A DNA stretch of 64,000 bases from Amylostereum areolatum. Lineage: Eukaryota > Basidiomycota > Agaricomycetes > Russulales > Stereaceae. Below the pieces are notes generated by a model. The model saw only the letters and a list, made by a program, of their open reading frames with translations, had not been told where the DNA came from and ran no database searches. The stretch lies in the NCBI GenBank assembly GCA_012932865.1, contig SAXG01000059.1:62001-126000 (forward strand), read 5' to 3'. Positions within the stretch are counted from its first letter, which is position 1. Each line of letters begins with the position of its first letter. Position numbers and translations under genes: made by a program. This document shows positions 10,074 through 43,656 of the stretch, in pieces.

Positions 10074-10403
10074 CTATTTACTCTTGCACCACCCTACGAC
10101 CGTCCCTACGTACTGTAGCGTAGTAGTAGTAGTACCCGTCTGGTACTGACCTTGTTCTTCCCCCGCGCCGCCCTAGACCGTTGCCCCCAGAGTACGCGAC
10201 TCGTTACCCTGACATTGTGGTCGTGTGCACGTATACCGGTGCCGGCTTGACGTTTCCTCGAAGCATTACACCTACTCGAGACTCTCCAATACCAGGAGTT
10301 GAAAGCTCAAAGGTGACAGTAGAAGGTGCACCTTTGGTGTAGGAAACGAGTAAAAGCGGCGAAAGGAAAGCGGTTTAGGAAGTCTTTGGGCTCATGTCCC
10401 CTA

Positions 10404-10545
10404 GACGAAGAGACAGCCAACAGGTTGAGAAGACTGAGGCAGACCGTCTTGCGATCTCATAACAGAACCACCTTCCCTCGACAAAATCTTCCCTTGCCGC
10501 ACAGAGTAACCATTTCGGCTGGGGGCTTGTGCATGGAAGATTGGC
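10404..10545 (+). other. Conserved leader block shared by E1 and E2
   Basis: The bases around GACGAAGAGACAGCCAACAG and AGGCAGACCGTCTTGCGAT (10404-10455), then CCCTCGACA, CCCTTGCCG and GGGGGCTTGTGCATGG up to the ORF0 ATG, are nearly the same in E2 (about 34870-35005, minus strand), although gag and pol of the two families have diverged widely. Small indels between the copies argue for an RNA role (packaging, dimerisation or translation) rather than a protein. Confidence 0.55.
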
Positions 10546-10910
10546 GCTCGCAAGTACAAGAATTCATCCCCATCAGCGACAACACCATCATCTCCCTCAT
10601 CAACAAGTCTAAAGACCCTTGGGCCTGGCACAATTGGAAGGTCACCCTCGGCGTAGAAGAACTCGAAGACTCCGTCATAGACGTCCATTTCTATTGTCTC
10701 AAAATAAGAGAACAAGGAACTAGAAACCACTACGTCCACTTCTGCCCATACGTCACCTACCGCTACAGACTCGAGCAACCCCCAAAGTCCTTCTACGCAC
10801 CCAACGAGAAAATACCTGTTGACACTCGACACACCCACCGTCTCCTTACACCAGGCAACACCCCCGATCCCACACCAGAGCCAGAGGTCATCAACCTAAC
10901 CCACTTATAA
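10533..10910 (+). CDS. E1 left ORF0, conserved pre-gag protein (125 aa)
   Basis: ATG 10533 to TAA 10908-10910. The start was chosen because no other ATG lies between it and the gag ATG at 11220. The protein has no familiar retroviral domain. Its core (LINKSKDPWAWHNW, then VIDVHFYCLKI and RYRLEQPPKSFYAP) can be matched to the equivalent frames of E2 and E3, with a shared D-P-W or P-D-W centre followed by beta-strand-like stretches. The frame is the same as gag's, so only the TAA separates ORF0 from the gag frame. The upstream ATG at 10394 begins a short separate frame and is GTG in the right copy and in E2. Confidence 0.6.
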   Translation: MEDWRSQVQEFIPISDNTIISLINKSKDPWAWHNWKVTLGVEELEDSVIDVHFYCLKIREQGTRNHYVHFCPYVTYRYRLEQPPKSFYAPNEKIPVDTRHTHRLLTPGNTPDPTPEPEVINLTHL

Positions 10911-12476
10911 ACAATTCCCTTGTTTGGACTCAACAGTTCCGACTCCAGCTCAGAAACAGGCTCTGACACCGACCCCGATAACTGCTGCATCTTCCCCCTC
11001 CCACTAGGCATCACTCAAGAAGACAACGACATCTTCACTGATCGACTCGGAGACAGCACCCAAGAAGTCACCTTTGTAACCACTGAACTCAGTGGCATCA
11101 TCTGGTACTTCACCGACGGAGACCAACCCGACCTCACCGAAGCTGACTTCAACCTCATCGCCACCTCCGCCCTACCACCTGTCACCGACGAAGACTTCTC
11201 CGACCTCGACGAACCAATCATGGCTGCCCAGTGGATCCGCACCGACCCCCAACCCCCTCTCCCCGCCGAACTTACCAACTGCACCGAAATTGGGGGAAGA
11301 TGGAACATCGTCATCGGCCAAACGGGCTCTCCCATCCAACACATGAATAACGGCACCGACAATGCATGGCTCATGGAAGTAAATGGCCAATGGGTCGCCA
11401 TCCCTGCCGTGCTTGTTGCCGCCCTCAACCTGCCACCCCCCACCGTCAACGTCACTGCCCCCCCCATCACCGTCAACCCCCCTGCGGTCACTGTTAGCGC
11501 CCCAGCCGCCGCCGCCGCCAGACCCCCTCGAAAGAAGGTCCACGCGAAAACTCCTGAAGGCTTCTCTGGGAAACGAGAGGACTTCAACGACTGGATGCGG
11601 TCATGCGAGGAGTACATGCGAGCCGCCGAGGATGACCTCGTGACGGACAAGGACAAAGTACTCTTCATCCTCACCTACATGATGGGGGAAGCAGCATGCA
11701 CCTGGAAGGCCAAGTACGAAGATGCGCACCTAGCCAATGGAGCCATGGTCACCTGGGTGGACTTCCACAAGGCGCTCAAAGGCGCCTTCACCGACGTCAA
11801 TGAGCAGCACCGTGCCGCGGTCGAACTGGACGGGTTCAAACAGACAAAGGGTACCACCGCCCATGGATACTTTGCCAGGTTTGAACAACTGGCAAGGAAG
11901 GCTGGGTACTCCACGGCGCAGGACCCCATCCACCTCATGCAGCTGCTTAAGCACAACATCTACTACCGGACCATCGACTCCATCTATGACAGCGGTCACG
12001 TCCCTCAGAAATATGAGGACCTCAAGGAGCGCATCATTCTGATTGATGGACTGCGACAGGAGCGGGAGGACCTGAAAACTCAACGCAGCGGCCCCGCGCA
12101 GAACCAAAAACCCAAAGGACAAGGGTCGTCCAATGGGCAGCAAGGGGGACAGGTCCCATGGCGCCGCGACGGAACCGGCACGGTACACGGTGGCAAAGGA
12201 CAGCCGATGGACGTCAACTGTGTCGACATTAAGGGCCGATGCTTCCGCTGTGGACAGAATGGCCACCAGGTGCGGGACTGCAGGGTGGACGTGAAGAACA
12301 TCCGAGATATGTGGGGGAGGGACCGGTACACGGAACCACCAAAGCGGGAGGCTCGAGCACAGACGTTCGAGATGCCCACCGCCTGGGCTAGGAGCCTGTC
12401 GGCCGAAGATCGGAAAAGCGTGATGGACGCGCTTCAAGCTCAGCCGAAGGTGGAAGAGAAGAAGGAGGGTTTTTGA
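10911..12476 (+). CDS. E1 left Gag frame, including AUG-less N-terminal extension
   Basis: The frame is open directly after the ORF0 stop but has no ATG until 11220 (MAAQWIR). The 103 codons before that ATG carry PLPLGIT and WYFTDGDQPDLTEADFNLIA, motifs also found in the same segment of E2 and E3. Downstream is a capsid-like region (FNDWMRSCEEYM, YFARFEQLARKAGYS) and a CCHC knuckle CFRCGQNGHQVRDC (about 12240-12281). The protein is 418 aa from the first ATG. The frame ends at TGA 12474-12476, overlapping pol in the -1 frame. Gag forms the virus-like particle and binds element RNA. Confidence 0.85.
   Translation, partial: TIPLFGLNSSDSSSETGSDTDPDNCCIFPLPLGITQEDNDIFTDRLGDSTQEVTFVTTELSGIIWYFTDGDQPDLTEADFNLIATSALPPVTDEDFSDLDEPIMAAQWIRTDPQPPLPAELTNCTEIGGRWNIVIGQTGSPIQHMNNGTDNAWLMEVNGQWVAIPAVLVAALNLPPPTVNVTAPPITVNPPAVTVSAPAAAAARPPRKKVHAKTPEGFSGKREDFNDWMRSCEEYMRAAEDDLVTDKDKVLFILTYMMGEAACTWKAKYEDAHLANGAMVTWVDFHKALKGAFTDVNEQHRAAVELDGFKQTKGTTAHGYFARFEQLARKAGYSTAQDPIHLMQLLKHNIYYRTIDSIYDSGHVPQKYEDLKERIILIDGLRQEREDLKTQRSGPAQNQKPKGQGSSNGQQGGQVPWRRDGTGTVHGGKGQPMDVNCVDIKGRCFRCGQNGHQVRDCRVDVKNIRDMWGRDRYTEPPKREARAQTFEMPTAWARSLSAEDRKSVMDALQAQPKVEEKKEGF
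12467..12473 (+). promoter_or_regulatory. Probable -1 frameshift site G-GGT-TTT at gag/pol
   Basis: In the gag frame the last codons are GAG GGT TTT TGA, giving the heptamer GGGTTTT, which fits the X-XXY-YYZ slippery rule, directly before the stop. The pol frame is -1 relative to gag. The right copy has the same bases in reverse complement near 19526-19532. Confidence 0.7.
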
Positions 12477-15400
12477 GGGGGCTGACGATGTACACGGCAT
12501 CTGAAGCCCAAGTTTCTGTTTCTCGCTCGTCTGGTTTTGTTGCGCCTCGGTGGCCTGGTTCTCGTTTGCATATGCGCATTGTTGATTCGGACTGTACTAC
12601 TACGGGGGATATCCCCATTATGACTTCTTTTACGGACTCTATCGGTACGGGCACGCGTCCCGTTGTTATTTTAGATAGTCAGGCTTCAATTTGTGAGCCT
12701 TCGGCTTTGGATACGGCATCAGTTTCGGTTTCAGTTTTGGATACAGCTTTGGATACGGACTCGGTTTTGGTCATGGACCCTGTGGAGACAGGGACAACGC
12801 CGTGCGATGGAAGGGGCACGGCGCTCGAATCATGTTATATGGCACCTGGAACGGCTCAATGGACGCTTTGTCGCTTAAGGGAAGACAAACCCGAAAGTGC
12901 AATTGCAATCCTTCGCATCTGGACACACCATCGACGTCGTGACGAGGCTACTTATGAAGCCATCAAGGAGATAACTGGCATGGAAGATGAATTAGCATGC
13001 CAAGCTCTACTAGAGCTCGCCACTCCCATGCAGTTCATATGCTCCTCCAGCGCCAAGGAACAAACGATCATTCCCACACAACTCGTGGTAGATTCCAAGC
13101 GCATTGTCAAAGCTCTTGCACTCCTGGACAGTGGTTGCACTGGCTCGTGTATCAACACGAAGTTTGTGCAGGAAAATCACATTCCCACGCGACGGACTGC
13201 TCGCCCAATCCCAGTACGAAATGCAGACGGCACTCTCAACGCAGGAGGTCCCATCACGGAATATGTCACACTTCGCCTAAATATTCAAGACCATGAAGAA
13301 AGCATTGACCTGGCGGTCTCCAACCTAGGAGATACGGACCTTTTTATTGGACATGAGTGGCTAAAAAAGCACAACCCTCACATCGACTGGAAATCCGGGT
13401 CAATTGAATTTGACCGATGCCCTATCAGCTGCTCTCGTCCCCCTCCCCTCCTCAATATCGATGATGATGAAGAAGAGGAGGAAGAGCCAGTCCACATGGA
13501 AAAGGACGAGCAGCTGTTTGCTTTCGACTGGGATGGTTACAAAGCGACATACCACATCCGGACCCATGCATCGGACATTGCAATTGAAGAGCACGCTAAG
13601 AAAAAGGAACAGACCTTCTCTGAGCGAGTCCCAACGGCGTACCACGAATTCAAGGACATCTTTGACAAAGACAACTTCGACAAGCTCCCTGAGCGACGCC
13701 CATGGGACCACGCCATTGAGCTCACTCCTAACTTCAAACCGGTCGATTGCAAAGTTTACCCCCTCACATTGGACGAGCAGAAGCAACTGGACACCTTTTT
13801 GGAAGAGAACCTGAGATCTGGCCGGATCCAGCCGTCCAAATCACCCATGGCCTCCCCATTCTTCTTCATCAAGAAAAAAGACGGCTCGCTACGTCCTGTG
13901 CAGGACTATCGAAAGCTCAATGAGATGACGATAAAAAACCGTTACCCGCTCCCGCTCATCCAAGAGTTGGTTGACAAGCTTAAGGGAGCACGGCACTTTA
14001 CCAAGCTCAATGTCCGATGGGGGTACAACAATGTTCGGATTAAAGAAGGGGACGAGTGGAAAGCTGCATTCCGCACGAACAAAGGTCTCTACGAGCCTAC
14101 GGTCATGTTCTTTGGACTCACCAACTCCCCGTCTACGTTCCAAGCCATGATGAACGACCTGTTCAAAGACTTGATCCACCAAGGAGTCGTGGTCGTCTAT
14201 TTGGACGACATCCTCATCTTCACGCATACGCTAGAAGAACATCGTCAAATAGTCAAGGAGGTCCTCCGGATCCTGCGAGAAAATAAACTCTATCTGAAGC
14301 CAGAAAAGTGCGAGTTTGAGAAGGCAGAAATCGAATACCTGGGCATGATTGTCGGCGGAGGAAGGGTTCGCATGGATCCAGCAAAGGTCGCGGCAATCAC
14401 CAATTGGCCAGCCCCCAAAACAAAGAAACAACTTCAATCGTTTTTGGGCTTTTGCAACTTCTACCGTCGCTTTATCAAGGACTTCAGCGGCATTGCTCAC
14501 CCAATGACTAAACTCACTGGGAAGACGGAATGGGTCTGGGACACCCCACAGCAGGAGGCTTTTGAGGAACTCAAGCGACATATAACATCACAGCCAGTTC
14601 TAGCAATCCCTACAGATGAGGGGCAGTTCCGTGTCGAGGCGGACTCCTCTGACTATGCCACGGGCGCGGTACTTTCGCAACAACAGGACAATGGCAAATG
14701 GCACCCGGTCGCCTTCCTCTCAAAGTCCCTCAGCGAAGCTGAGAGGAACTATGAGATTTATGACAAGGAATTACTGGCTATCATGACGGCGCTAGAGGAA
14801 TGGAGACAATACCTCATGGGGGCACGACAGGAGTTTGAAATCTGGTCGGATCATCGCAATCTCACGTACTTCCGCAAGGTGCAGAAGCTAAATCAGAGAC
14901 AATCACAGTGGTTAACGGAGCTGCAAGAGTATCATTGTACGCTACTCCACAAGCCCGGCAAAACAATGGGTAAACCCGATGCTATTTCCCAACTAGCGGG
15001 CCTTGAGAAGGGGGAGAAAGACAATGAAAACATCGTCCTCCTGAAACCAGGACTCTTTCGCGCCCTCAACCATGCAGGAATTATAACCAATGGACCTGAC
15101 AATGTCTTCATTGAGCGGATTCAGGAGGCTACCTTACTCCGAGACCATGCAGTAGAACGTGCCTTAGCACTCAAAGTAAAGGGATGGCTGGAACATGCAG
15201 ATGGAACAGTCACCTGGCAACACAGACTCTATGTCCCAAGAGACAAAGGACTCCGTGCAGACATTATCCAGGCTCATCATGACGGCCCGCTTGTCGGTCA
15301 TCCAGGACGATACAAGACCCACGAGCTCATCACGCACAACTACTGGTGGCCTGCCATTAGAGATGACGTCCGGAAATATGTCGAAGGATGTGAGACCTGC

Positions 15401-16126
15401 CAACGTACCAAGATTAGACATGATCGCATTGCCGCTCCACTCCACCCACATGACCCGCCACAAGCGCCTTGGGAGCACGTATCCATTGACTTTGTCATGC
15501 CACTCCCGGTCTCGGATGGAAAAGACACCATCTGCAATGTGAACTGCATGGGTACCAAGCAGGTTGTATTCTGGGCCACGACCAAAGACCTAACGGAGGA
15601 CAAGCTTGCCTTCGAGTACCTAGGAGAAGTAGTCCCCCATCATGGAATTCCTAGAAAGATTGTCAGTGACCGCGGCAGCGTCTTTGTCTCCAAGTTCACC
15701 ACGGCATTGTTCCAACTGCTAGGCATTGAAGGGAATCCATCTACGGCGTACCACCCTCAGACGGACGGACAGACCGAACGCTCCAACATGACCATGGAAA
15801 ACTACCTTCGCATCTTCGTCAATCAACGACAAGACAATTGGACATGTTACCTCCCACTTGCCATGACTGCGCTCAACAACATGGTCCATAGTTCAATTGG
15901 GATGTCTCCCAACTTTGCCAACTATGGTCGGGAACTCTACCTGGGGACAAACCCTCGACGCTTAGCGCAGAGCGGGCTTCCTCATAGATGTCTCGCATGC
16001 ATTGTGCAAACTCGTTCGCCAATGGGTTGTCTGTCTCGCGTCGAGGGTTTGTCCCCAGGTAGAGTTCCCGACCATAGTTGGCAAAGTTGGGAGACATCCC
16101 AATTGAACTATGGACCATGTTGTTGA
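12473..16126 (+). CDS. E1 left Pol (protease, RT, RNase H, truncated integrase)
   Basis: This is the -1 frame after gag; it has no ATG of its own at the junction, consistent with a Gag-Pol fusion. Visible in order: protease LLDSGCTGS (about 13123), RT YPLPLIQELVDKLKG, RT motif A KLNVRWGYNN (14003-14032), YLDDILIF (about 14200), RNase H VEADSSDYATGAVLS (about 14635), integrase zinc finger H..H..CETCQRTK (15390-15414), and the catalytic SIDFVMP, VSDRGSVF and TERSNMTMENYL. Element sequence ends at 15961; residues after TNPRR read through the palindrome centre into antisense sequence. The motif A aspartate is Asn (AAT 14009-14011), so this RT should be inactive. Confidence 0.9.
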   Translation: MRGLTMYTASEAQVSVSRSSGFVAPRWPGSRLHMRIVDSDCTTTGDIPIMTSFTDSIGTGTRPVVILDSQASICEPSALDTASVSVSVLDTALDTDSVLVMDPVETGTTPCDGRGTALESCYMAPGTAQWTLCRLREDKPESAIAILRIWTHHRRRDEATYEAIKEITGMEDELACQALLELATPMQFICSSSAKEQTIIPTQLVVDSKRIVKALALLDSGCTGSCINTKFVQENHIPTRRTARPIPVRNADGTLNAGGPITEYVTLRLNIQDHEESIDLAVSNLGDTDLFIGHEWLKKHNPHIDWKSGSIEFDRCPISCSRPPPLLNIDDDEEEEEEPVHMEKDEQLFAFDWDGYKATYHIRTHASDIAIEEHAKKKEQTFSERVPTAYHEFKDIFDKDNFDKLPERRPWDHAIELTPNFKPVDCKVYPLTLDEQKQLDTFLEENLRSGRIQPSKSPMASPFFFIKKKDGSLRPVQDYRKLNEMTIKNRYPLPLIQELVDKLKGARHFTKLNVRWGYNNVRIKEGDEWKAAFRTNKGLYEPTVMFFGLTNSPSTFQAMMNDLFKDLIHQGVVVVYLDDILIFTHTLEEHRQIVKEVLRILRENKLYLKPEKCEFEKAEIEYLGMIVGGGRVRMDPAKVAAITNWPAPKTKKQLQSFLGFCNFYRRFIKDFSGIAHPMTKLTGKTEWVWDTPQQEAFEELKRHITSQPVLAIPTDEGQFRVEADSSDYATGAVLSQQQDNGKWHPVAFLSKSLSEAERNYEIYDKELLAIMTALEEWRQYLMGARQEFEIWSDHRNLTYFRKVQKLNQRQSQWLTELQEYHCTLLHKPGKTMGKPDAISQLAGLEKGEKDNENIVLLKPGLFRALNHAGIITNGPDNVFIERIQEATLLRDHAVERALALKVKGWLEHADGTVTWQHRLYVPRDKGLRADIIQAHHDGPLVGHPGRYKTHELITHNYWWPAIRDDVRKYVEGCETCQRTKIRHDRIAAPLHPHDPPQAPWEHVSIDFVMPLPVSDGKDTICNVNCMGTKQVVFWATTKDLTEDKLAFEYLGEVVPHHGIPRKIVSDRGSVFVSKFTTALFQLLGIEGNPSTAYHPQTDGQTERSNMTMENYLRIFVNQRQDNWTCYLPLAMTALNNMVHSSIGMSPNFANYGRELYLGTNPRRLAQSGLPHRCLACIVQTRSPMGCLSRVEGLSPGRVPDHSWQSWETSQLNYGPCC

Positions 16127-19526: not shown

Positions 19527-21085
19527 AAACCCTCCTTCTTCTCTTCCACCTTCGGCTGAGCTTGAAGCGCGTCCATCACGCTTTTCCGATCTTCGGCCGA
19601 CAGGCTCCTAGCCCAGGCGGTGGGCATCTCGAACGTCTGTGCTCGAGCCTCCCGCTTTGGTGGTTCCGTGTACCGGTCCCTCCCCCACATATCTCGGATG
19701 TTCTTCACGTCCACCCTGCAGTCCCGCACCTGGTGGCCATTCTGTCCACAGCGGAAGCATCGGCCCTTAATGTCGACACAGTTGACGTCCATCGGCTGTC
19801 CTTTGCCACCGTGTACCGTGCCGGTTCCGTCGCGGCGCCATGGGACCTGTCCCCCTTGCTGCCCATTGGACGACCCTTGTCCTTTGGGTTTTTGGTTCTG
19901 CGCGGGGCCGCTGCGTTGAGTTTTCAGGTCCTCCCGCTCCTGTCGCAGTCCATCAATCAGAATGATGCGCTCCTTGAGGTCCTCATATTTCTGAGGGACG
20001 TGACCGCTGTCATAGATGGAGTCGATGGTCCGGTAGTAGATGTTGTGCTTAAGCAGCTGCATGAGGTGGATGGGGTCCTGCGCCGTGGAGTACCCAGCCT
20101 TCCTTGCCAGTTGTTCAAACCTGGCAAAGTATCCATGGGCGGTGGTACCCTTTGTCTGTTTGAACCCGTCCAGTTCGACCGCGGCACGGTGCTGCTCATT
20201 GACGTCGGTGAAGGCGCCTTTGAGCGCCTTGTGGAAGTCCACCCAGGTGACCATGGCTCCATTGGCTAGGTGCGCATCTTCGTACTTGGCCTTCCAGGTG
20301 CATGCTGCTTCCCCCATCATGTAGGTGAGGATGAAGAGTACTTTGTCCTTGTCCGTCACGAGGTCATCCTCGGCGGCTCGCATGTACTCCTCGCATGACC
20401 GCATCCAGTCGTTGAAGTCCTCTCGTTTCCCAGAGAAGCCTTCAGGAGTTTTCGCGTGGACCTTCTTTCGAGGGGGTCTGGCGGCGGCGGCGGCTGGGGC
20501 GCTAACAGTGACCGCAGGGGGGTTGACGGTGATGGGGGGGGCAGTGACGTTGACGGTGGGGGGTGGCAGGTTGAGGGCGGCAACAAGCACGGCAGGGATG
20601 GCGACCCATTGGCCATTTACTTCCATGAGCCATGCATTGTCGGTGCCGTTATTCATGTGTTGGATGGGAGAGCCCGTTTGGCCGATGACGATGTTCCATC
20701 TTCCCCCAATTTCGGTGCAGTTGGTAAGTTCGGCGGGGAGAGGGGGTTGGGGGTCAGTGCGGATCCACTGGGCAGCCATGATTGGTTCGTCGAGGTCGGA
20801 GAAGTCTTCGTCGGTGACAGGTGGTAGGGCGGAGGCGGCAATGAGGTTGAAGTCAGCTTCAGTGAGGTCGTCTTGGCTTTCATTGGCGAAGTACCAACTG
20901 ATGCCACTTGTTTGGGTTGCTACAAAGGCGACTTCGACAGTGGTGTCTCCGAGTTGGACCAAGAAGTGGTTTCCTTGTTCAGTGAAGCCTAGAGGGAGGG
21001 GATATATGTAGCAGTTTTCGTCCTCGACGTCGGTGTCGGAGTCAGAACTGGAGTCGGAGCCGTTGAGTCCGAACGAGGGAATTGT
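19523..21085 (-). CDS. E1 right Gag frame with AUG-less extension
   Basis: The frame opens after the ORF0 stop (TAA 21088-21086) and has no in-frame ATG until 20779. In the extension it differs clearly from the left copy (SGISWYFANESQDDLTEADF against SGIIWYFTDGDQPDLTEADF). From about 20780 inwards the two Gag proteins are the same over nearly their full length, including the CCHC knuckle. The end (TGA, 19525-19523) and slip site match the left copy. One out-of-frame ATG occurs at 20883 in this copy only. Confidence 0.8.
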   Translation of the reverse strand, partial: TIPSFGLNGSDSSSDSDTDVEDENCYIYPLPLGFTEQGNHFLVQLGDTTVEVAFVATQTSGISWYFANESQDDLTEADFNLIAASALPPVTDEDFSDLDEPIMAAQWIRTDPQPPLPAELTNCTEIGGRWNIVIGQTGSPIQHMNNGTDNAWLMEVNGQWVAIPAVLVAALNLPPPTVNVTAPPITVNPPAVTVSAPAAAAARPPRKKVHAKTPEGFSGKREDFNDWMRSCEEYMRAAEDDLVTDKDKVLFILTYMMGEAACTWKAKYEDAHLANGAMVTWVDFHKALKGAFTDVNEQHRAAVELDGFKQTKGTTAHGYFARFEQLARKAGYSTAQDPIHLMQLLKHNIYYRTIDSIYDSGHVPQKYEDLKERIILIDGLRQEREDLKTQRSGPAQNQKPKGQGSSNGQQGGQVPWRRDGTGTVHGGKGQPMDVNCVDIKGRCFRCGQNGHQVRDCRVDVKNIRDMWGRDRYTEPPKREARAQTFEMPTAWARSLSAEDRKSVMDALQAQPKVEEKKEGF

Positions 21086-21487
21086 TTATAAGTGGGTAAG
21101 GTCGATGACCTCTGGCTGGGTGAGGTCGATGACCTCTGGCTCTGGTGTGGGGCTGGGGGTGTTGCCTGGTGTAAGGAGGCGGTGGGTGTGTCGAGTGTCC
21201 ACTGGTATTTTCTCGTTGGGCACGTAGAAGGACTTTGGGGGTTGCTCGAGTTTGTAGTGGTAGGTGACGTATGGGCAGGAGTAGACGTAGAGGTTTCCGT
21301 TTCCTTGTTCGCTTATTTTGAGGCGATAGAAGTGGATGTCTATGACGGAGTCTTCAAGTTCTTCTACGCCGAGGGCGACCTTCCAATAGTGCCAGGCCCA
21401 AGGGTCTTTAGATTCATTGATGAGGGAGATGATAGTGTCGTGGCTGATGGGGATGAATTCTTGTACTTGCGAGCGTCAATCTTCCAT
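21086..21487 (-). pseudogene. E1 right ORF0, nonsense codon at position 4
   Basis: The ORF0 ATG at 21487 is followed by GAA GAT TGA (stop 21478-21476); the left copy has TGG there. Beyond this stop the frame stays open to TAA 21086 and keeps the DPWAWHYWKV and RLKI blocks. An in-frame tandem duplication of the EPEVIDLT segment lies near 21090-21145. The upstream ATG of the left copy (10394) is GTG here. Confidence 0.7.
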
Positions 21488-32398: not shown

Positions 32399-34120
32399 CT
32401 AAAAATCCGACTCTGCGTCGGCATCTGATCCACCGCTCTTGGTGCTCCTGTCGTCGACTACCTTGTCCTTGTCCTTCTTCTTCTTCCTTGCTTCTGTTTT
32501 GGGCGTCGGCGTGGTTTTGCCGTCGGTTTCCACCAGAGCGCGGAGGATCATCTTTCGCTGCTCGTCGTCCAGAGTGTTAATCCATTCTTTGGGCGAAGCG
32601 AATTCTTCCGTGGTCTGGGACCGTGCTTGCTGGTTGGGGTTGCGTTTGAAGGGAGGTGGTCGCGGGGTGTTCGAGGAGCGGGGTCCTTTGTAGTTGGGAG
32701 ACGTGCTGTAGCGGTCACGTCCCCACTTTTTCCGGATGTATTCGACCGACGCCTTGCAGTCCTTGGAGATGTGGTTGGTCATTCCACATTTGAAGCAGCG
32801 TCCCTTGGTGTCGATGGCGCCTATGTCCATGGCTTGTCCACCGCCTCCATGAATGGTACCCGTGGCATCTTTGACGTCTTTGGGTTTGGAGGTGGTATGG
32901 GTGGAGGAGGAGGGGTGTCCGCGGTGCATTTCGGAGATTTCGCGCCAGGCATTGTCCATCTCAGTGACGCGTTTCTTCCAATCGGTGTATGTGGTGGGGA
33001 CCGGCGGGCTGCGGAAGATGTTCTTCAGTATCTCTATCTTGATGTTGGCTTTGAGAATACGAAGGAACCAGGCGTTGTCGTTGGTGGGGATGACGTTAGC
33101 GCGTCGCGCAATTTGTTCGAACTTGACGAAGAATTCATCGGCTGATTTGCTCCCCATTTTGAACTGATCCAGTTCATTGAGCGCGTCCTGCTGATCCGAG
33201 GTGCTGACGAAGGAGGCGTCGAGGGCAGTGATGAAGTTGGCCATCGTGACCGTGGTTCCGGCGGTGAGGACATTGGCGTCCTTGAAGTTGCGCGCCCATT
33301 CCTTGGCGGCGCCTTCCCTCATGTAACTGAGGATGAAGCGGACTTGATCGATTTCACTGATGAAGTCTTGGGGGGCCGCTTCGATGTAACTAGTGACTTC
33401 ATGTTTGAAGTCCGCGTATTCAGAACGTTTTCCGTTATACTCCCGCGGTTTGGCGGCGTGGATTTTTCGTTTAGCGGTGGCGGCTGCAGGCGCTCCTGGG
33501 GCGGCGGGAGTGAATGCGGCGATGATTAGGCCACTGAAGGCGTGCCAGTTTCCGGCGTCGACATAGGCCCATTGTGTTCCATTTAACGGGTCGTCGGTGA
33601 ATTCGAATTTGGCGACTTCGTACGCTATCCCATTAAGGAACGCGTAGCGGGTGTTTCCGATGACGGGGGCGAATGCGGCGATGTTGGCGGGGCAGTTGGT
33701 TTGATCGGCTGCGCGGCGGTTGAGGACAGTGGCGGCCATGGCTCGTCTTCTGTTCCAGGCGGATGAGGGGGGGGAGCGGGGTCGTAGGGGTCCGGTGTGG
33801 GTTTGGACTTGGAATGTTCGAGGTGGTGGGTTATACGGTGGGGGTGGGGGTGGTGCGGGGGGAGGTTGGTTCCTCAGACGTTCTTGGCGTCGGTCGTAGT
33901 CTAGGGCGATGAGTGCGAGGTCGGCTTCAGTGAAGGCTTGATTTCCTTCTTCGTCGGCACACCACTCTCCGTCAACAAAGTAGACTTGGTCTTCTTCTTC
34001 GTCTCCTTCTAAGTGGATGAAGTAAAGAAATCTCCGTTCCCTTCGGAGGTATTCTTCGGTGATTCCTCGGGGGAGGGGATGGGGACTACGGGGGCGTAAG
34101 CCGTAAGTGGACGACACGGT
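32399..34120 (-). CDS. E2 Gag frame with AUG-less extension
   Basis: The frame opens right after the ORF0 TAA (34123-34121). The first ATG is 33739 (MAATVLNRRA), giving 446 aa. The 127 codons before it have no ATG but carry PLPRGITEEYLRRER, VYFVDGEW and FTEADLALIA, matching the E1 and E3 extensions. Downstream are a capsid-like region (FFVKFEQIARRANVIP) and CCHC CFKCGMTNHISKDC (about 32750-32795). The frame ends GAT TTT TAG at 32399; pol follows in -1. Confidence 0.85.
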   Translation of the reverse strand, partial: TVSSTYGLRPRSPHPLPRGITEEYLRRERRFLYFIHLEGDEEEDQVYFVDGEWCADEEGNQAFTEADLALIALDYDRRQERLRNQPPPAPPPPPPYNPPPRTFQVQTHTGPLRPRSPPSSAWNRRRAMAATVLNRRAADQTNCPANIAAFAPVIGNTRYAFLNGIAYEVAKFEFTDDPLNGTQWAYVDAGNWHAFSGLIIAAFTPAAPGAPAAATAKRKIHAAKPREYNGKRSEYADFKHEVTSYIEAAPQDFISEIDQVRFILSYMREGAAKEWARNFKDANVLTAGTTVTMANFITALDASFVSTSDQQDALNELDQFKMGSKSADEFFVKFEQIARRANVIPTNDNAWFLRILKANIKIEILKNIFRSPPVPTTYTDWKKRVTEMDNAWREISEMHRGHPSSSTHTTSKPKDVKDATGTIHGGGGQAMDIGAIDTKGRCFKCGMTNHISKDCKASVEYIRKKWGRDRYSTSPNYKGPRSSNTPRPPPFKRNPNQQARSQTTEEFASPKEWINTLDDEQRKMILRALVETDGKTTPTPKTEARKKKKDKDKVVDDRSTKSGGSDADAESDF

Positions 34121-36911: not shown

Positions 36912-37331
36912 TGTCACGGATCGCTCCATTTCTCTCTTCGTTTGCAGACCTCGTACACGCGACGTGTCAAGGCACATGACTTTCCCTTGCATCACATGCT
37001 TCAACGACGTCATTGCCCGGACTTCCGAGCGGGGTTCCGCATCCTTATCTATGACATCATTGCTCCGGACCTTTGTCCTCCGCCCCATGACTCCTTTCTT
37101 ATTGTTCCCCCCGCTCGCACCACTATTGCATCGCATCGCACCATCGTACCCACTTGTATATAAGGACAGTGTTTCTCTTCCCTTTTCCCTAGACTGTCCA
37201 TCTCGTCATACGGTACTGTAGCGCACGTTGCACTACCCTAGACCCCGGCACTCTCGAATCTATTTTCTTCTCGCTCCTCCCATCGTCGCGACTTAGGCGG
37301 TTCATCGGTCTCATAAACTGCGTTTCTGACA
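36912..37331 (+). repeat. E3 5' LTR
   Basis: 420 bp, TGTCACGGATC...TTTCTGACA. TATATAAGG at 37157-37165 is followed by TAGACTGTCCA at 37190-37200, the predicted RNA 5' end, 31 nt from TATAAGG. Confidence 0.93.
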
Positions 37332-37948
37332 CCTGGACAGTCTACCCCTACGCCTACCTCGCACCCCTCTCTCCATCTACCTCTGCCGTCTCCACGACGT
37401 TAAAAACTCCCACCACGGACCTCCCGAACGCACCGGTTTTCCTCCCGTTCAACGGAAAGCCGATCACCCCCCGCGACGACGCACCACTCCCCTACCCTTG
37501 GTCCGACGCCGTCACCGTCAACTGCCTCGTCCCCGTACAGAACCTCTGCAAGAAAGATCCCTGGACCGCGCACGGCCTCAACTTCCGCATCTTCGAGTGG
37601 AGGTGGCACAAGGATCACGGTACTGTCGTCCTTGCCCTATACGTCCGGATCACCACGTGCATCAACGTAGACCTCGAACGCCTTGAATTCACCCTCCACG
37701 CCCCCACCTACCACACGTACCTCATCCAGGACGCCCCCAACCCGATCCTCCAAACCAGTTTCACCTCCGTCTCCCAGTTTAACCGCCGGACCCCCGAATC
37801 CACCCCGCCACCAGTCCTCCGTCCCACCATCAAGGGTAAGACCCTTCGTCGCCGCCACCACGAACATAAGATCCGCCAGGCAGTAAAAGCCGGCTACCTC
37901 ACCAAGAAACTCCTCGGCCGTCGCCCCATCGCGGCGGACTTCTTCTAG
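37193..37948 (+). CDS. E3 ORF0: open frame without any ATG, in gag frame
   Basis: From the second codon after the predicted RNA start to TAG 37946-37948 this frame has no stop and no ATG (251 codons). Codon third positions are dominated by C, as in the element's real genes. The segment DPWTAHGLNFRIFEW, then VVLALYVRITTCINVDLERL, resembles the KDPW core of E1 ORF0. A basic stretch (GKTLRRRHHEHKIRQAVKAG) precedes the stop. Translation would need a non-AUG start; the true start is unknown. No functional domain is recognised. Confidence 0.5.
   Translation, partial: TVHLVIRYCSARCTTLDPGTLESIFFSLLPSSRLRRFIGLINCVSDTWTVYPYAYLAPLSPSTSAVSTTLKTPTTDLPNAPVFLPFNGKPITPRDDAPLPYPWSDAVTVNCLVPVQNLCKKDPWTAHGLNFRIFEWRWHKDHGTVVLALYVRITTCINVDLERLEFTLHAPTYHTYLIQDAPNPILQTSFTSVSQFNRRTPESTPPPVLRPTIKGKTLRRRHHEHKIRQAVKAGYLTKKLLGRRPIAADFF
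37334..37344 (+). other. E3 self-priming primer-binding site
   Basis: TGGACAGTCTA, 2 nt after the LTR end, is the exact reverse complement of TAGACTGTCCA at 37190-37200. Eleven pairs is the length known for Tf1. Confidence 0.8.
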
Positions 37949-39565
37949 ACCATCATCACGTCCTCCACAGCCCCTCGTCCCCCCACTCCGAACCTCCCCC
38001 CAGGCGTTTTTCGAGACTACTGTCCCGAAGAATACTATATCCTCACCTCGCAGCAGACTAAGGAATCCGTACGTTGGCTGCACGACGAACCAAACCGGCA
38101 ACGTCGAGACTGGTACTTCGACGACCGTGACGAACAACCCTACGTTGAAGAATCGGATTTTGCCACCGCTGCGGACGTTCTACAGCGCTTCCTGAACCCC
38201 CCTCCGACCAACTCGCCCCCACCCCGTCGACGTACTGTAATCGAAGTCCCCGAAGGGATCAACCACAACGACACAACTGGGAAGTGGTACGCCTATAGAC
38301 GAAACAAGAACGGAACCCCAGGACGATCAGTAGTTGAGTGGCAGCCCACTTCGTTCAGTCCCGTCCAAGATCACTGGTCGTGGCATCATAACCAGCAATT
38401 CCTCACCCCCGCCGACTTCCTTGTCGCAAAACAAGTTGAGGACGAAGTTGAAGAAGCAGAAGAACGCCGACGAGAAACCCTACGCCGCCTTGATCAAGAA
38501 CTCGCCCAATCCCTCACCGTCCCCCTCCCCTTCGACAAGATGCCCGACGCCGAATCCAAACCTGTCGTCTCCAAGCGGGAGATCGGCCCCAAGCCAAAGC
38601 CATTCAAAGGCGATAGACGCGACACCCTCCGGTTCTCCCTCGAGCTCCGCATGTTCCTGCGCGTTAACAAAGATGTTTATGCCACAGATGACGCCAAGAT
38701 GATGCTCCTCCTCAGCCTGATGGAGGACGACACGGCGAAAGCCTGGGCCACGCATCGCCGCATGGAACTCTTCGCCGACGAAGACGAGAAGGAAGACGCC
38801 GACACCCTCGACCCCACGCCCCCAACACTCCACTATAACTCCTACAAAGAGCTCTTCGAGAGGTTTGGCAAAGACTTCGTGCCCGTCGATCCGAAGATAG
38901 AGGCTCAGCGTAAGATCAACGAGCTCGCAATGACCACCCGGGACGTCACTGACTTTATCACCGAGTTTGAGATGCTGGCAACCATGTCAGCATACGACGA
39001 CGAGGCGCTAATCCACTTTTTCAAGAAGGGACTTCAGCGTGACCTCGGCAAGCAGGTGGCCCGGTCGTACCCGTTCCCCACAAAGCTCGCGGAGTGGAAG
39101 GAGCGCGCCCGCCGCATCAACCACCAGTGGCTCGAAGAGAACCCGGAGAGGAAGAGCAGTCAGTCCAAGGGGGCTGTCGCGCTCACCTCGAACGGTTCGA
39201 CCAACGACTCCTCGTCGCGCCGAGTCGGCGCCTTCACCAACACCTCGACCCGCCCTGCAAAGCTGACGGACGACGAGCGCGCAAAGATGATGCGCGAAGG
39301 CAAGTGCTTCATGTGTCGACAAGCCGGTCACGTCTCTCGCGACTGCCCCAACCGCGACTCGAGCGCGCGACGGGTGGGCGCAGTAGAGACTGGGTCCAAG
39401 GCCCCTCCCCTGCCGACGAACACGGCTCCGTCCACTGCGAAAGCAGCTCCCGACCCATCCAAAACCATCGCGGCGATCACCCGCCAGCTGAAGGATCTGG
39501 ATGCGGAAGGTAAGGAGCAGGCAGTGGCACTGTTGAAGGATATCCTAGAGTCGCAGGATTTTTGA
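37949..39565 (+). CDS. E3 Gag frame with AUG-less extension; first ATG 38540
   Basis: After TAG 37946 the gag frame is open for 197 codons without an ATG (37949-38539). It carries LPPGVFRDYCPEEYYIL and DWYFDDRDEQPYVEESDFA, comparable with the E1 and E2 extensions, and a coiled-coil-like Glu/Arg-rich end. From ATG 38540 the 341-aa Gag has a capsid region (FSLELRMFLRVNKDV, FITEFEMLATMSAYDDEA) and CCHC CFMCRQAGHVSRDC (about 39306-39347). It ends GAT TTT TGA at 39563-39565 with pol in -1. Confidence 0.85.
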   Translation, partial: TIITSSTAPRPPTPNLPPGVFRDYCPEEYYILTSQQTKESVRWLHDEPNRQRRDWYFDDRDEQPYVEESDFATAADVLQRFLNPPPTNSPPPRRRTVIEVPEGINHNDTTGKWYAYRRNKNGTPGRSVVEWQPTSFSPVQDHWSWHHNQQFLTPADFLVAKQVEDEVEEAEERRRETLRRLDQELAQSLTVPLPFDKMPDAESKPVVSKREIGPKPKPFKGDRRDTLRFSLELRMFLRVNKDVYATDDAKMMLLLSLMEDDTAKAWATHRRMELFADEDEKEDADTLDPTPPTLHYNSYKELFERFGKDFVPVDPKIEAQRKINELAMTTRDVTDFITEFEMLATMSAYDDEALIHFFKKGLQRDLGKQVARSYPFPTKLAEWKERARRINHQWLEENPERKSSQSKGAVALTSNGSTNDSSSRRVGAFTNTSTRPAKLTDDERAKMMREGKCFMCRQAGHVSRDCPNRDSSARRVGAVETGSKAPPLPTNTAPSTAKAAPDPSKTIAAITRQLKDLDAEGKEQAVALLKDILESQDF

Positions 39566-42500
39566 AACGCCCCCCAGTCGCGTCGTCTGGCGGAGGCAAA
39601 AGACTTATATCATCGGCATCTTACAATCGCTTCTCTGTACTATCATCTATGACCTCATGTGAGCAATCGTATCCATCGTGTGTGCACCTCTCTACTGTCA
39701 CGAAGAACAGGCAGACACCCTCGATAACGCTCAAGGTCAAAATGATTGGACGAGCGACAGGCCGACAAATCGACGCAGAGGCACTGCTTGACAGCGGTGC
39801 AGAAGGAATCATCATCAACCGAAGCTTCGCTGAACGCAAGAAGCTGACTACAAGAAAACTAGAAAACCCGTTCCCCGTGCGTAACGTGGACGGCACCGAG
39901 AACATCATGGGCTGGGTGCGTGATACGACGACCCAACGGATCCGGATATACTCGCAAGACTCGAAGGCATACCATGAGGAAGAAGCTGAGTTCTTCATCA
40001 CCGACATCGGTGATCACGATATGATCCTTGGAACAGACTGGCTCGATGAGCATAACCCCACCATAGACTGGCAGCAAGATCGTGTTGACATGCTCCGCTG
40101 CCCTCCCTCTTGCACCCTCTCCGAACCGACCGTGACAAACCTTGCAACAAAGCCGCGAACACCATCGTCGACCCGATCACAGCAAAATATTCGAACTGAT
40201 GCGGCCCCTAAGGTACCTCTAGCCCCGGACGACCCATTCCCAGAACCAGTGTATGTCTCCTGGGCCCCTATCCCTACGTATGTCATCCCCGCGCGCAGGG
40301 TCAAAGGAGTTCGCATCCGCACATTCCATCTCTCACCTTTACCTGCCCGCCTTTTCACTGAAGACGACGACGAACGACCCAGGGTCTTCCGAGACTGGGA
40401 GATCAATGGCCTGCATCGTGCTGGGATTCTTCCTGAGGTTGACGGCCCCAACCCGGAGGCAGTACCAATCCGAGCGGGCTTCACCAAGGCGCAAGAGCTT
40501 GCAGAGCACTCAAGGGAAAATGCACGCCCGCAAACCTTTGAAGACTTGGTTCCCCCTCCATACCGCGACTTTGCACCCGTATTCGACAAGAAAACCTCTG
40601 AACGACTACCCGACCGGCGACCATGGGATCATGCCATCGACATGAAGGACGGCTTCGAACCCAAGCCCTGCAAGATCTACCCGCTCTCCCCCTCCGAGCA
40701 GATCGAGCTCGATACCTTCCTCGACGACCACCTGAAGAAGGGCTACATTCGCCCATCGAAATCACCGCAGGCAAGTCCGTTCTTCTTCGTCAAAAAGAAA
40801 GATGGGAAGCTGCGGCCTGTACAGGACTATCGAGAGCTGAACAAGGGTACCATCAAAAACGAGTACCCCTTGCCGCTGATCTCAGAAATTGTTGACCGCC
40901 TCAAAGGTGCAAAGATCTTCTCCAAGATGGACGTCCGCTGGGGGTACAACAATGTCCGCATCAAGGAAGGCGACGAGTGGAAGGCTGCGTTCAAGACGAA
41001 TCGTGGCCTCTTTGAACCTACGGTGATGTTCTTCGGCCTTATGAACTCCCCCGCGACGTTCCAGGCAATGATGAACGAACTTTTCAAGGATCTTATCGAC
41101 TCGGGCAAAGTCATCATCTACATGGACGACATCCTCGTATTCACTCGAACTATGGAGGAACATCGTGCCATAGTGCGACAGGTTCTCCAACGCCTACAAG
41201 ACAATGACCTGTTCCTTAAGCCAGAGAAATGTGTCTTCGAGCAGGACTCCGTTGAATACCTCGGACTCATTATTTCACACGACAAGATCGCCATGGACCC
41301 CGTCAAGGTAGCTGGTATCCAGGACTGGCCGACACCCCGGACGGTCAAGGATGTACAATCCTTCCTCGGATTTGGTAATTTCTACCGACGCTTCATCAAG
41401 GATTTCTCCAAGATCGCACGACCTCTATTCGACCTGACAAAGAAGGACTGCACATGGAATTGGTCGACGGAATGCCAGACGGCGTTTAACGCACTTAAAG
41501 CTGCGTTCACCTCCTCCCCTGTCTTAGTTATGCCTGATCCAAGGAAACCCTACCTTGTCGAAGTTGACGCCTCGGACTTTGCTACTGGAGGTATACTCTC
41601 GCAGAAAGGTGACGACGGTCACTGGCATCCAGTGGCGTATCTGTCCAAAGCCCTATCGGAACCGGAACGCAACTACGACATCTACGACAAGGAGCTACTC
41701 GCGATCATCCGTGCGCTCGAAGCCTGGCGCCACTACCTCGAAGGCGCCCCCGACACCGTCGAAATCTGGACAGACCACAAGAACCTGGAGCACTTCAAGA
41801 CGGCACAGAAGCTGAGCCGCCGACAGGCACGTTGGGCTCTATTCCTCACTCGATTTGACTTCGCGCTCGTTCACAAACCAGGAGTATCCCATCGCCCAGA
41901 CCCAATGTCCCGACGACCTGATCACAAGCAGGGCGTTGAGAACGACAACAAGGAGCGTATCTTGCTCGACCCCAAGTACTTCCAGATACGTGCAACAAGG
42001 CCAGGAGCAGTAACCTCCCTCGGCGATGTCGAACTCCGACGACGTATCCGCGACTGCAAGACCAAGGACATTGAGGTCGTTCAAGCTCTGGATGCCATCT
42101 TACGGAATGGACCACGTACACTCGTTAAGAACCTTCAAGAGTGGAACTACGAAGAAGGCCTGGTCCTGTTTAGAGGAAAGGTATATGTCCCTGCAGACGA
42201 CGGGTTGCGACGCGACATTGTCAAAATGTACCATGAATCGCCCCTGGCTGGACACCCTGGTCGCTTCAAGACTTACGAACTTGTGAGTCGTGAATATTGG
42301 TGGCCTGGCATGTCTGTCTTTGTCCGCGACTTTGTAGCAGGATGCGCAACCTGCCAGTCGACAAAGACACAGAGCAGCCGACCCCACGTCGACATGATCC
42401 CGAACGAAGTACCCGACCGACCATTTGGCGTCATCTCTACCGACTTCATTGTCGAGCTCCCTGACTGCGAAGGCTATAATGCCGTCAACGTCGTGGTTGA

Positions 42501-43656
42501 TCGCCTCACCAAGATGGTGGTTACCACCCCATGTACAACGAAGATCACCAGCGATGGCACGGCCGACATTCTCTTCGATAAGGTATACCGACATTACGGC
42601 TTGGCGGACAAGATCATCTCGGATCGTGGACCCCAATTTGCTGGGCAGGTAATGCGTACACTCAACGAGAAGCTCGGGATCAAGTCTGCCCTTAGCACAG
42701 CGTACCACCCACAGACAGATGGCCAGACCGAACGCGAAAACCAGAACCTTGAGCAGTTCCTGCGAGTATTCTGCAACTACCGTCAAGATGACTGGGTGAA
42801 GTGGCTGCCCTTCTTCGAGTTTTCTCACAACTCCCGCACCCATGCAGCTACCGGAAAGGCCCCCTTTGAAGTCCTCTATGGCTTCCTCCCCAAGATGTAC
42901 CCATCCGTAAACCCGTCCTCAAAGGTCCCTGCAGTTGAAGAATGCCTCCGTCAACTTGAAGAAGTCCGACAGGAGATCAAGGCCAGCCTTGCCCTCGCAT
43001 CCGACTTAATGAAGCACTACAATGGTGACACGATCAGCAAATCGACACTGTTCGCCGTCGGAGACAAGGTCTGGCTCGAAGGCAAAAACCTGAAGACGAC
43101 GAGGCCGAAAGCTAAGCTTGCTGCCAAACGATTTGGACCCTTCGAGATCGTTGACATCATTAGCCCAGTGAACTACCGCCTGAAGCTGCCGAAGACGTGG
43201 AGAATCCACCCAGTCTTCCATGCTTCGCTGCTCACCGCGTACAAGGAGACAACGGCACACGGTCCAAACTATGAACAACCGCCGCCTGACCTTGTTGATG
43301 ACGAAGAAGAATATGACGTTGAAGACATCATCGACTCGAAGCCGACCCGTAACAAGAAAGGCATACAATACCTCGTCAAGTGGGCAGGCTATCCTGACTC
43401 TGAGAATACCTGGCTCCCTCGCTCCTCGCTCTCAAAAGTCACCAACATGATCGACGCCTTCCACAAACGCCATCCAAATGCGCCCCGCCCTGTGCGTTCC
43501 CTCGGCATCTCCTTTGACGATTTCCTCGCATCTACCCTTGCAGATGACATTGCGCTCCAGGCGAAAGCGCGTCTTAAAGGGGGGGTAATGTCACGGATTG
43601 CTCCATTTCTCTCTTCGTTTGCAGACCTCGTACACGCGACGTGTCAAGGCACATGA
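39562..43656 (+). CDS. E3 Pol (protease-RT-RNase H-integrase-chromodomain)
   Basis: A 1364-codon frame in -1 to gag. Landmarks: protease LLDSGAEG (39786), RT motif A FSKMDVRWGYNN (40918), IIYMDDILVF (41112), RNase H VEVDASDFATGGIL (41560), integrase finger H..H..C..C (42240-42360), IISTDFIVELP-type Asp (42436), ISDRGPQF (42616), TERENQNLEQFL (42730), tail LPKTWRIHPVFHASLL (43185), and a chromodomain YDVEDII..YLVKWAGYPDSENTWLP (43312-43420). Nothing catalytic is visibly missing. The stop (43654-43656) lies 68 nt inside the 3' LTR, so the last residues are LTR-encoded. A chromodomain usually directs integration to modified histones. Confidence 0.93.
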   Translation: MKRPPVASSGGGKRLISSASYNRFSVLSSMTSCEQSYPSCVHLSTVTKNRQTPSITLKVKMIGRATGRQIDAEALLDSGAEGIIINRSFAERKKLTTRKLENPFPVRNVDGTENIMGWVRDTTTQRIRIYSQDSKAYHEEEAEFFITDIGDHDMILGTDWLDEHNPTIDWQQDRVDMLRCPPSCTLSEPTVTNLATKPRTPSSTRSQQNIRTDAAPKVPLAPDDPFPEPVYVSWAPIPTYVIPARRVKGVRIRTFHLSPLPARLFTEDDDERPRVFRDWEINGLHRAGILPEVDGPNPEAVPIRAGFTKAQELAEHSRENARPQTFEDLVPPPYRDFAPVFDKKTSERLPDRRPWDHAIDMKDGFEPKPCKIYPLSPSEQIELDTFLDDHLKKGYIRPSKSPQASPFFFVKKKDGKLRPVQDYRELNKGTIKNEYPLPLISEIVDRLKGAKIFSKMDVRWGYNNVRIKEGDEWKAAFKTNRGLFEPTVMFFGLMNSPATFQAMMNELFKDLIDSGKVIIYMDDILVFTRTMEEHRAIVRQVLQRLQDNDLFLKPEKCVFEQDSVEYLGLIISHDKIAMDPVKVAGIQDWPTPRTVKDVQSFLGFGNFYRRFIKDFSKIARPLFDLTKKDCTWNWSTECQTAFNALKAAFTSSPVLVMPDPRKPYLVEVDASDFATGGILSQKGDDGHWHPVAYLSKALSEPERNYDIYDKELLAIIRALEAWRHYLEGAPDTVEIWTDHKNLEHFKTAQKLSRRQARWALFLTRFDFALVHKPGVSHRPDPMSRRPDHKQGVENDNKERILLDPKYFQIRATRPGAVTSLGDVELRRRIRDCKTKDIEVVQALDAILRNGPRTLVKNLQEWNYEEGLVLFRGKVYVPADDGLRRDIVKMYHESPLAGHPGRFKTYELVSREYWWPGMSVFVRDFVAGCATCQSTKTQSSRPHVDMIPNEVPDRPFGVISTDFIVELPDCEGYNAVNVVVDRLTKMVVTTPCTTKITSDGTADILFDKVYRHYGLADKIISDRGPQFAGQVMRTLNEKLGIKSALSTAYHPQTDGQTERENQNLEQFLRVFCNYRQDDWVKWLPFFEFSHNSRTHAATGKAPFEVLYGFLPKMYPSVNPSSKVPAVEECLRQLEEVRQEIKASLALASDLMKHYNGDTISKSTLFAVGDKVWLEGKNLKTTRPKAKLAAKRFGPFEIVDIISPVNYRLKLPKTWRIHPVFHASLLTAYKETTAHGPNYEQPPPDLVDDEEEYDVEDIIDSKPTRNKKGIQYLVKWAGYPDSENTWLPRSSLSKVTNMIDAFHKRHPNAPRPVRSLGISFDDFLASTLADDIALQAKARLKGGVMSRIAPFLSSFADLVHATCQGT
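43576..43585 (+). other. E3 polypurine tract
   Basis: AAAGGGGGGG, 3 nt before the 3' LTR at 43589, within the pol frame. Confidence 0.7.

Follow-up and report, generated by a model that had tools for sequence, protein, structure and literature searches.

Near-AUG-free 5' coding regions and a proposed non-AUG start of an extended Gag in Ty3 retrotransposons of Amylostereum areolatum

The analysed stretch of DNA (the window: 64,000 nucleotides, positions 62001-126000 of contig SAXG01000059.1 in the 57.1 Mb, 182-contig assembly of the basidiomycete Amylostereum areolatum) contains three families of Ty3 long terminal repeat (LTR) retrotransposons, E1 (two copies), E2 (on the minus strand) and E3. 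In these elements a first open reading frame (ORF), designated ORF0, is followed by one in-frame stop and by an N-terminal extension of the gag frame, and the region ahead of the Gag AUG is nearly free of AUG. ORF0 and the extension are under protein-level selection, and the extension is, judging by its sequence, a real conserved protein segment without an AUG of its own. The arrangement is probably best explained by polycistronic translation, in which leaky scanning with non-AUG starts, similar to that of rice tungro bacilliform virus (RTBV), is followed by a -1 shift into pol. The customary description of LTR retrotransposons is that of gag-pol elements with a single recoding event.

Element families, coding layout and protein-level selection

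The layout of ORF0, one in-frame stop and a conserved AUG-less Gag extension had been described for E1, E2 and E3 in a sequence-only reading of the window, and it was borne out by the present analysis. The positions given for the stops, including that of the right copy of E1, and for the first in-frame ATGs were exact (Table 1), and the lengths of the AUG-less stretches, which amount to 103 (E1), 127 (E2) and 197 (E3) codons, were confirmed. The extension motifs, PLPxGIT or LPPGVF, WYF, and TEAD or EESD followed by hydrophobic residues, are indeed common to the families. The gag frame of E1 is open from 10911 to 12476 after the ORF0 TAA, and the position of the TAA is constant in all 30 E1 loci sampled and in all 27 alignable loci among the 30 fetched for E2. 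In E1, E2 and E3, pol is open in the -1 frame and a slippery-type heptamer (GGGTTTT or GGATTTT) lies just 5' of the gag stop, in agreement with the -1 shift into pol proposed earlier.

The Pfam scan detected Retrotrans_gag in the gag of E1, E2 and E3, and zf-CCHC in that of E1 and E3 and, slightly under the cut-off, in E2. The domains of E3 pol are RVT_1, RT_RNaseH, Integrase_H2C2, rve and Chromo. The presence of reverse transcriptase (RT), RNase H, integrase and chromodomain, along with the gag domains, therefore identifies E3 as a chromovirus (Metaviridae); this assignment by pol domains applies to E3, the element covered by the pol scan. No Pfam match was obtained for the ORF0 of E1, E2 or E3 up to an E-value of 1, and the AlphaFold model of E3 ORF0 was poor (mean predicted local distance difference test score, pLDDT, 48.8). 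Sister families were located with a degenerate RT-motif pattern, which corresponds to 721 places in the genome, and were taken from the matches listed; a different, single RT-motif pattern gave one genome place only. The additional families found beyond the window are E4 (loci L062, L063, L072 and L078), E5 and E6.

Table 1. Positions of the described features of E3, E1 and E2 in the window
Element	Feature	Position	Strand	Details and basis
E3	TATA box TATATAA in 5' LTR	37157..37163	+	RNA start presumed about 30 nt downstream, from sequence
E3	ORF0, 177 codons, no AUG	37415..37945	+	Proposed ACG start in CCCACCACGGAC; near-cognate context and alignment
E3	ORF0 stop TAG	37946..37948	+	Sequence
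E3	Gag extension, 196 codons	37952..38539	+	Proposed AUC start (ACC AUC); no ATG in any frame
E3	Gag proper	38540..39565	+	AUG with A at -3, C at +4; Retrotrans_gag, zf-CCHC
E3	GGATTTT	39556..39562	+	Putative -1 slippery site 5' of gag stop
E3	pol, -1 frame	39514..43656	+	Protease, RT, RNase H, integrase, chromodomain; domain scan
E1	ORF0, 125 codons	10533..10910	+	AUG with U at -3 (weak); TAA 10908-10910
E1	Gag extension	10914..11219	+	Proposed AUU start (ACA AUU); no ATG in any frame
E1	Gag	11220..12476	+	AUG with A at -3 and G at +4
E1	GGGTTTT	12467..12473	+	Putative -1 slippery site
E1, right copy	Extension frame	20777..21085	-	Stop 21088-21086, ATT 21082-21080, Gag AUG 20779; mapped via inverted repeat
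E2	ORF0, 250 codons	34121..34873	-	AUG 34873 with U at -3 (weak); TAA 34123-34121
E2	+1 ORF overlapping ORF0, 167 codons	34306..34809	-	AUG 34809 (U at -3)
E2	Gag extension	33740..34117	-	Proposed GUG start (ACC GUG); no ATG in any frame
E2	Gag	32399..33739	-	AUG with G at -3 and G at +4; putative slippery GGATTTT 32408-32402

The conservation of the extension as protein, which had been claimed from the motifs, is supported by purifying selection in the claimed frame only. In the 19 of the 30 E1 loci that are stop-free in both ORF0 and extension, the ratio of nonsynonymous to synonymous substitution rates (dN/dS) was 0.40 for the extension (95% bootstrap interval over codons 0.28-0.59) as against 0.99 and 0.91 in the shifted frames, 0.41 for ORF0 (0.28-0.62; shifted frames 0.78 and 0.96) and 0.27 for the start of Gag. 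With decayed copies taken in, dN/dS was 0.45 for ORF0, 0.43 for the extension and 0.27 for early Gag in the 30 E1 loci, and 0.28, 0.25 and 0.10, in the same order, in the 27 E2 loci. The comparison of E3, E5 and E6 with one another gave 0.16-0.41 for ORF0, 0.36-0.51 for the extension and 0.29-0.52 for early Gag. The extension of E4 (four copies) was characterized by a dN/dS of 0.31 (0.20-0.49), with 0.73 and 1.42 in the shifted frames. A dN/dS near 1, which the sequence-only reading had named as refuting, was not found in the extension of E1 and E4, where the ratio is well below 1.

AUG depletion and candidate start codons

Two features had been overlooked by the sequence-only reading: the scarcity of ATG is not confined to the gag frame but extends to all three frames, and the ORF0 of E3 has no AUG at all. 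In E3, no ATG occurs in any frame between 37151 and 38539, which is an ATG-free run of 1389 nt up to the Gag AUG. In E1 no ATG separates the ORF0 AUG (10533) from the Gag AUG (11220), and in E2 there is a single one (+1 frame, 34809) between 34873 and 33739. Immediately past the Gag AUG of all three elements, ATGs are frequent. For the pooled upstream regions of E1, E2 and E3, 1 ATG was counted as against 18.1 expected from dinucleotides, ATG being the most depleted of the 64 triplets, and for gag the corresponding numbers were 69 and 47.0.

The depletion was also determined in one chosen copy of each of the six families (the window copies for E1-E3, L063 for E4, C94 with its full-length ORF0 for E5, and C120 for E6). 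The 1993 upstream codons of these copies contain no internal Met and 3 out-of-frame ATGs (one in E2, two in E5), as against 33.7 expected (standard deviation 4.0; minimum 20 in 2000 synonymous shuffles, which leave the protein and its codon usage unchanged). In the gag parts of these copies, Met accounts for 46 of 1536 codons, and out-of-frame ATGs number 49 as against 34.7 expected. Long ATG-free runs up to the Gag AUG were found in other families as well, namely 1198 nt in two of three E6 copies and 1295 nt in one of three E5 copies, the latter being without part of its ORF0. The leaders of E3 and of the E4 copy L063 contain no AUG, nor does the E2 stretch from the TATA region to ORF0. The E1 leader has an ATG at 10394, a place at which ATG occurs in 3 of the 25 E1 loci listed, and a leader ATG is present in some E5 copies.

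Near-cognate codons other than AAG and AGG were listed per frame in one copy of each family. Up to +240 nt, and counted from the opening of the frame or, for E5 and E6, from where the fetched piece begins, exactly one near-cognate combines a purine at -3 with G at +4 in each of four frames: the ORF0 frame of E3, of E5 and of E6, and the E4 extension frame. This single codon sits at the aligned ORF0 start, is ACG in E3 and E4 and CUG in E5 and E6, and stands in the context CCCACC or CCCATC. Among the 20 aligned E3, E5 and E6 rows that cover the place, ACG or CTG is found in 16, and the E6-like copy L073 has ATG there. The three pairs of E6 copies L081, L085 and L086 differ by indels of 1-3 nt in the leader 5' of the CUG and by none in ORF0; for the other, diverged ORF0s, indel counts by nucleotide alignment were uninformative. 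In the chosen copies of E3-E6, the first ORF has no AUG available and has a candidate ACG or CUG in good context, and the ORF0 of E1 and E2 has a weak AUG, with U at -3, instead. The Gag AUGs of E1, E2, E3, E5 and E6 have A or G at -3.

For the extension frame, the first near-cognate is AUU in E1, GUG in E2 and AUC in E3, each with A at -3, and in E5 and E6 the first one to combine a -3 purine with a +4 G is the AUC that follows the ORF0 stop. The constant feature is AUC, AUU or GUG with a purine at -3, located 3-8 nt past the ORF0 stop; the purine was present in 98 of 98 rows. The alignments show that near-cognate codons in good context, which are candidate start codons, recur at homologous places.

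Frame relations and explanations for the translation of the extension

The ORF0 of E5 and E6 is homologous to that of E3 and ends with GACTTCTTC TAG or a near variant. The sequence 3' of the stop is ACC ATC in E3 (phase 0), A-ACC ATC or A-ATC ATC in E6 (4 nt, phase +1) and ACACCACC ATC in E5 (8 nt, phase +2). The phase was tallied in 98 rows; some loci are counted twice in them (the window copies are L001, L026 and L031), and junctions outside the patterns, such as that of L089 (aligned phase +1), are omitted. Phase 0 was found in 33 of 33 E1 rows, 32 of 34 E2 or E2-like rows and 4 of 4 E3-like rows, phase +1 in 16 of 18 E6 rows with +2 in the other two, and phase +2 in all 9 E5 rows. Both E2-like exceptions, L106 (+1) and L057 (+2), have an intact 250-codon E2 ORF0, and one TGA is listed in the extension of each. 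In E5, E6 and these two copies the stop-to-start spacers are 4, 5, 7 and 8 nt, and the frame differs from that of ORF0. At least five copies (L081, L082, L085, L094 and L096) have an open ORF0 together with an open extension-gag that lies in another frame. The 556-codon E6 frame is represented by 13 rows among the matches listed, two of them with a stop inside the match, and the 629-codon E5 frame by 4 such rows, one with a stop. E4 has an AUG-less extension frame without a preceding ORF0 stop, which in L063 runs for 244 codons from CCCACCACGGAG to the Gag AUG; the copy L072 has one TAG inside it. An extension in phase with the ORF0 stop across all families, as would befit a readthrough cassette, was not found. 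Since the extension is kept open out of phase in multi-copy families, its translation there cannot come from readthrough of the ORF0 stop alone.

In the scanning explanation, ribosomes would move from the cap through a 5' RNA that is nearly free of AUG and would serve as a leaky-scanning corridor. A minority would initiate ORF0, for which E3, E5 and E6 offer a good-context ACG or CUG and E1 and E2 a poor-context AUG, and another minority would initiate at the AUC, AUU or GUG with a purine at -3 shortly behind the ORF0 stop, which would result in an N-terminally extended Gag. In E4, the ACG would start the extended Gag with no ORF0 ahead. The remaining ribosomes would arrive at the Gag AUG and produce Gag, and Gag-Pol would arise from a -1 frameshift close to the gag end. 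The start of the extension may be reached either through scanning alone or partly through reinitiation after ORF0 termination.

Several observations weigh against this explanation. The AUG desert is imperfect in many copies: 13 of the 30 E1 loci have no ATG in it, exactly one occurs in 21 of the 27 E2 loci and more in the remainder, and three E5 copies have 0 (part of ORF0 missing), 2 and 6 ATGs ahead of Gag. Of three E6 copies, two are free of upstream ATGs, and the third has 1 and has lost its Gag AUG. Dinucleotide shuffles of single regions gave P < 0.05 in only 2 of 6 upstream regions of E1-E3, and the right copy of E1 was not ATG-depleted in this comparison, which included the start codons (P 0.27). 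Four of the 20 aligned rows have CTA or ACA at the ORF0 start place, the extension starts of E1, E2 and E3 are without G at +4, and the E4 Gag AUG has U at -3, counter to a simple weak-then-strong order. The patterns used for the purine tally demand ATC, ATT or GTG, and in E3, E5 and E6 also an A first after the stop; in L066, L076 and the window E3 the ATC counted is the second of two, as in many tandem-ATC E6 copies. Ile or Val at the extension start place could also reflect plain protein conservation. Moreover, the dN/dS values come from pairs of related copies and are tree-free, and no added island of nucleotide-level conservation was found at the ORF0/extension junction. The start codons, their efficiencies, the RNA start (placed by the TATA box) and the amounts of product are inferred in this scheme.

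The short spacer of 3-8 nt found in every tallied row (E1, E2, E2-like, E3, E5 and E6) is not required by pure scanning, and it would be accounted for by termination-coupled reinitiation at the near-cognate behind the ORF0 stop, with leaky scanning serving the Gag AUG only. This is a sub-form of the scanning explanation for the extension start, counted separately. However, the E4 extension is AUG-less without any ORF0 ahead of it, and eukaryotic reinitiation following 125-250 codons is rare. In the Caulimoviridae, ORFs linked by short overlaps or by fused stop-start codons are likewise read via leaky scanning, according to a published account (PMC5902531). Reinitiation is considered unlikely, though with an appreciable residual probability. 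Much less can be said for readthrough of the ORF0 stop to an ORF0-extension-Gag fusion. A single stop in the same frame in E1, E2 and E3, kept in all E1 and all aligned E2 loci, speaks in its favour, but ORF0 and extension do not share a frame in E5, in E6 or in the E2-like copies L057 and L106, whose ORF0 is intact, and E4 offers no stop to read through. These phase differences between families contradict readthrough as the conserved, shared mechanism that the sequence-only reading had envisaged, and the two recoding events in one RNA that it had derived from it are not supported either. The E3 ORF0 has no AUG, and therefore readthrough would still leave a non-AUG start necessary. Frameshifting in place of readthrough in E5 and E6 is possible as far as the frames alone are concerned; readthrough as such is very unlikely.

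An intron that brings an upstream AUG into the extension frame could in principle operate in E1 and E2, whose ORF0 has an AUG. No AUG is present upstream of the extension in E3, in L063 of E4, in C120 and C94 of E5 or in C120 and C30 of E6, where the E6 pieces and that of E5 C94 start just behind the LTR and E5 C120 is without part of ORF0. Splicing within the examined stretch therefore cannot supply an AUG in these copies and was rejected for them, and for the elements as a whole it is extremely improbable. A similarly minimal probability is given to the explanation in which ORF0 and extension form an untranslated leader kept for RNA or DNA reasons, with Gag as the sole product. AUG avoidance by itself would be expected of a long scanned leader; frames of hundreds of codons nevertheless remain open, and the dN/dS speaks against it, since in E1 and E4 a single frame has a value well below 1 and the values among E3, E5 and E6 are low. 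Among the three mechanisms offered by the sequence-only reading, non-AUG initiation is thus the favoured one.

Relation to known systems and further observations

The proposed near-cognate start of an N-terminally extended Gag has a counterpart in the glyco-Gag of gammaretroviruses, which begins at an in-frame CUG that precedes the Gag AUG; it is not known to have either a preceding ORF0 or an all-frame AUG depletion over a kilobase. Long upstream ORFs nearly devoid of AUG in all frames are the likeness to RTBV and the badnaviruses (Caulimoviridae), and they are present in the six chosen copies, other copies carrying more ATGs. According to the account of these viruses, the first ORF of RTBV starts at the non-AUG codon AUU, several long ORFs per RNA are without internal AUGs, an upstream AUG is in moderate context, and about 900 nt are scanned to the main ORF (PMC5902531). 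In that system a leader that carries short upstream ORFs and a stem-loop is shunted, unlike the AUG-free E3 leader. Other differences from RTBV are that the main ORF of these fungal LTR retrotransposons is gag, from which a -1 shift leads into pol, and that the second start would yield an N-extended form of the main product.

With the fungal Ty3/Gypsy chromoviruses, the elements share LTRs, a CCHC-knuckle gag and a -1-frame pol that encodes protease, RT, RNase H, integrase and chromodomain. In its available part, the survey "LTR Retrotransposons in Fungi" (PMC3248453) describes gag and pol, and relative to this description ORF0 and the non-AUG Gag extension are extra. An additional ORF named ORF0 is also attributed to rice Retrosat2, an LTR retrotransposon with LTRs of more than 3.2 kb, in the available part of its description (PMC3485330), which mentions no non-AUG starts; Retrosat2 is a plant element, and the likeness is one of description. 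The literature search, for which subscription papers were mostly beyond reach, found no report that fungal Ty3 elements or other LTR retrotransposons use leaky scanning or start at codons other than AUG, and no earlier description of the layout in LTR retrotransposons, in line with the view of the sequence-only reading. The mechanism is known in Caulimoviridae, and the setting and arrangement are new as far as this search shows.

If the scanning explanation is true, gene finders that demand an AUG miss part of the coding content of hundreds of element copies in this genome, and the loss of AUG from most of the pre-Gag RNA (up to about 1 kb) permits an extra conserved protein and an extended Gag. 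The plant pararetrovirus strategy would then extend to Metaviridae, and the natural variants ACG, CUG, AUC, AUU and GUG at homologous positions would be a testable system for start-codon selection in fungi. A more far-reaching view is tentative and rather doubtful: it would see here a fungal LTR retrotransposon lineage with a multi-tier, near-AUG-free 5' polycistron, a near-cognate restart behind the ORF0 stop, an overlapping E2 gene on a single tolerated AUG and ORF0 as a new retrotransposon protein, the strategy being either independent of the sister family Caulimoviridae or shared with it by descent.

Outside the genome, one relative was found for each of two queries among the roughly 8000 best candidates scored: P0001 from Amylostereum chailletii (Russulales) for E3, and P0002, matching in the gag part only, for E1. 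P0001 is 74% identical to E6 extension-gag across 163 residues; its extension is E6-like, and the last 118 extension residues before the Gag Met contain no Met. The scan of IMG/VR gave a single weak RT match.

The +1 ORF that overlaps E2 ORF0 starts at the sole AUG of the E2 desert. No stop interrupts it in any of 27 copies, and the ORF0 frame across the overlap has a stop in 2 of 27. The synonymous divergence of E2 ORF0 is 0.039 within the overlap as against 0.100 past it, and the dN/dS of the overlapping frame is 0.53 (0.31-0.95), so this ORF may be a further gene. In all four E4 copies a second (+1) frame is open for 307-314 codons through the extension and beyond the Gag AUG; its dN/dS in the desert, 0.73 (0.48-1.16), does not support coding status.

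Although E1 and E2 are otherwise widely different, a 120-nt leader block 5' of ORF0 (10336-10455 in E1, 34953-35072 in E2) is alike in both, with 81% identity between E2 and the left copy of E1 and 83% for the right copy. This common block could be an RNA element. Four copies appear recombinant (L057, L106, L073 and L091), combining either an E2 ORF0 with another extension or an E3-like ORF0 with an E6-like extension. E3 and E6 are 92% identical over the first 100 Gag residues and 54% over ORF0. In the E3-like copy L076, the extension is interrupted near its middle by about 500 nt of other sequence and continues afterwards. The two E1 copies lie pol to pol and form a 4.9 kb inverted repeat that is 99% identical, its arms (11045-15961 and 16038-20954) being 76 nt apart. 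In contrast, the two copies are only 80% alike over 157 nt (10879-11035 and 20961-21117) that surround the ORF0 stop and the start of the extension, which suggests an exchange between E1 subfamilies.

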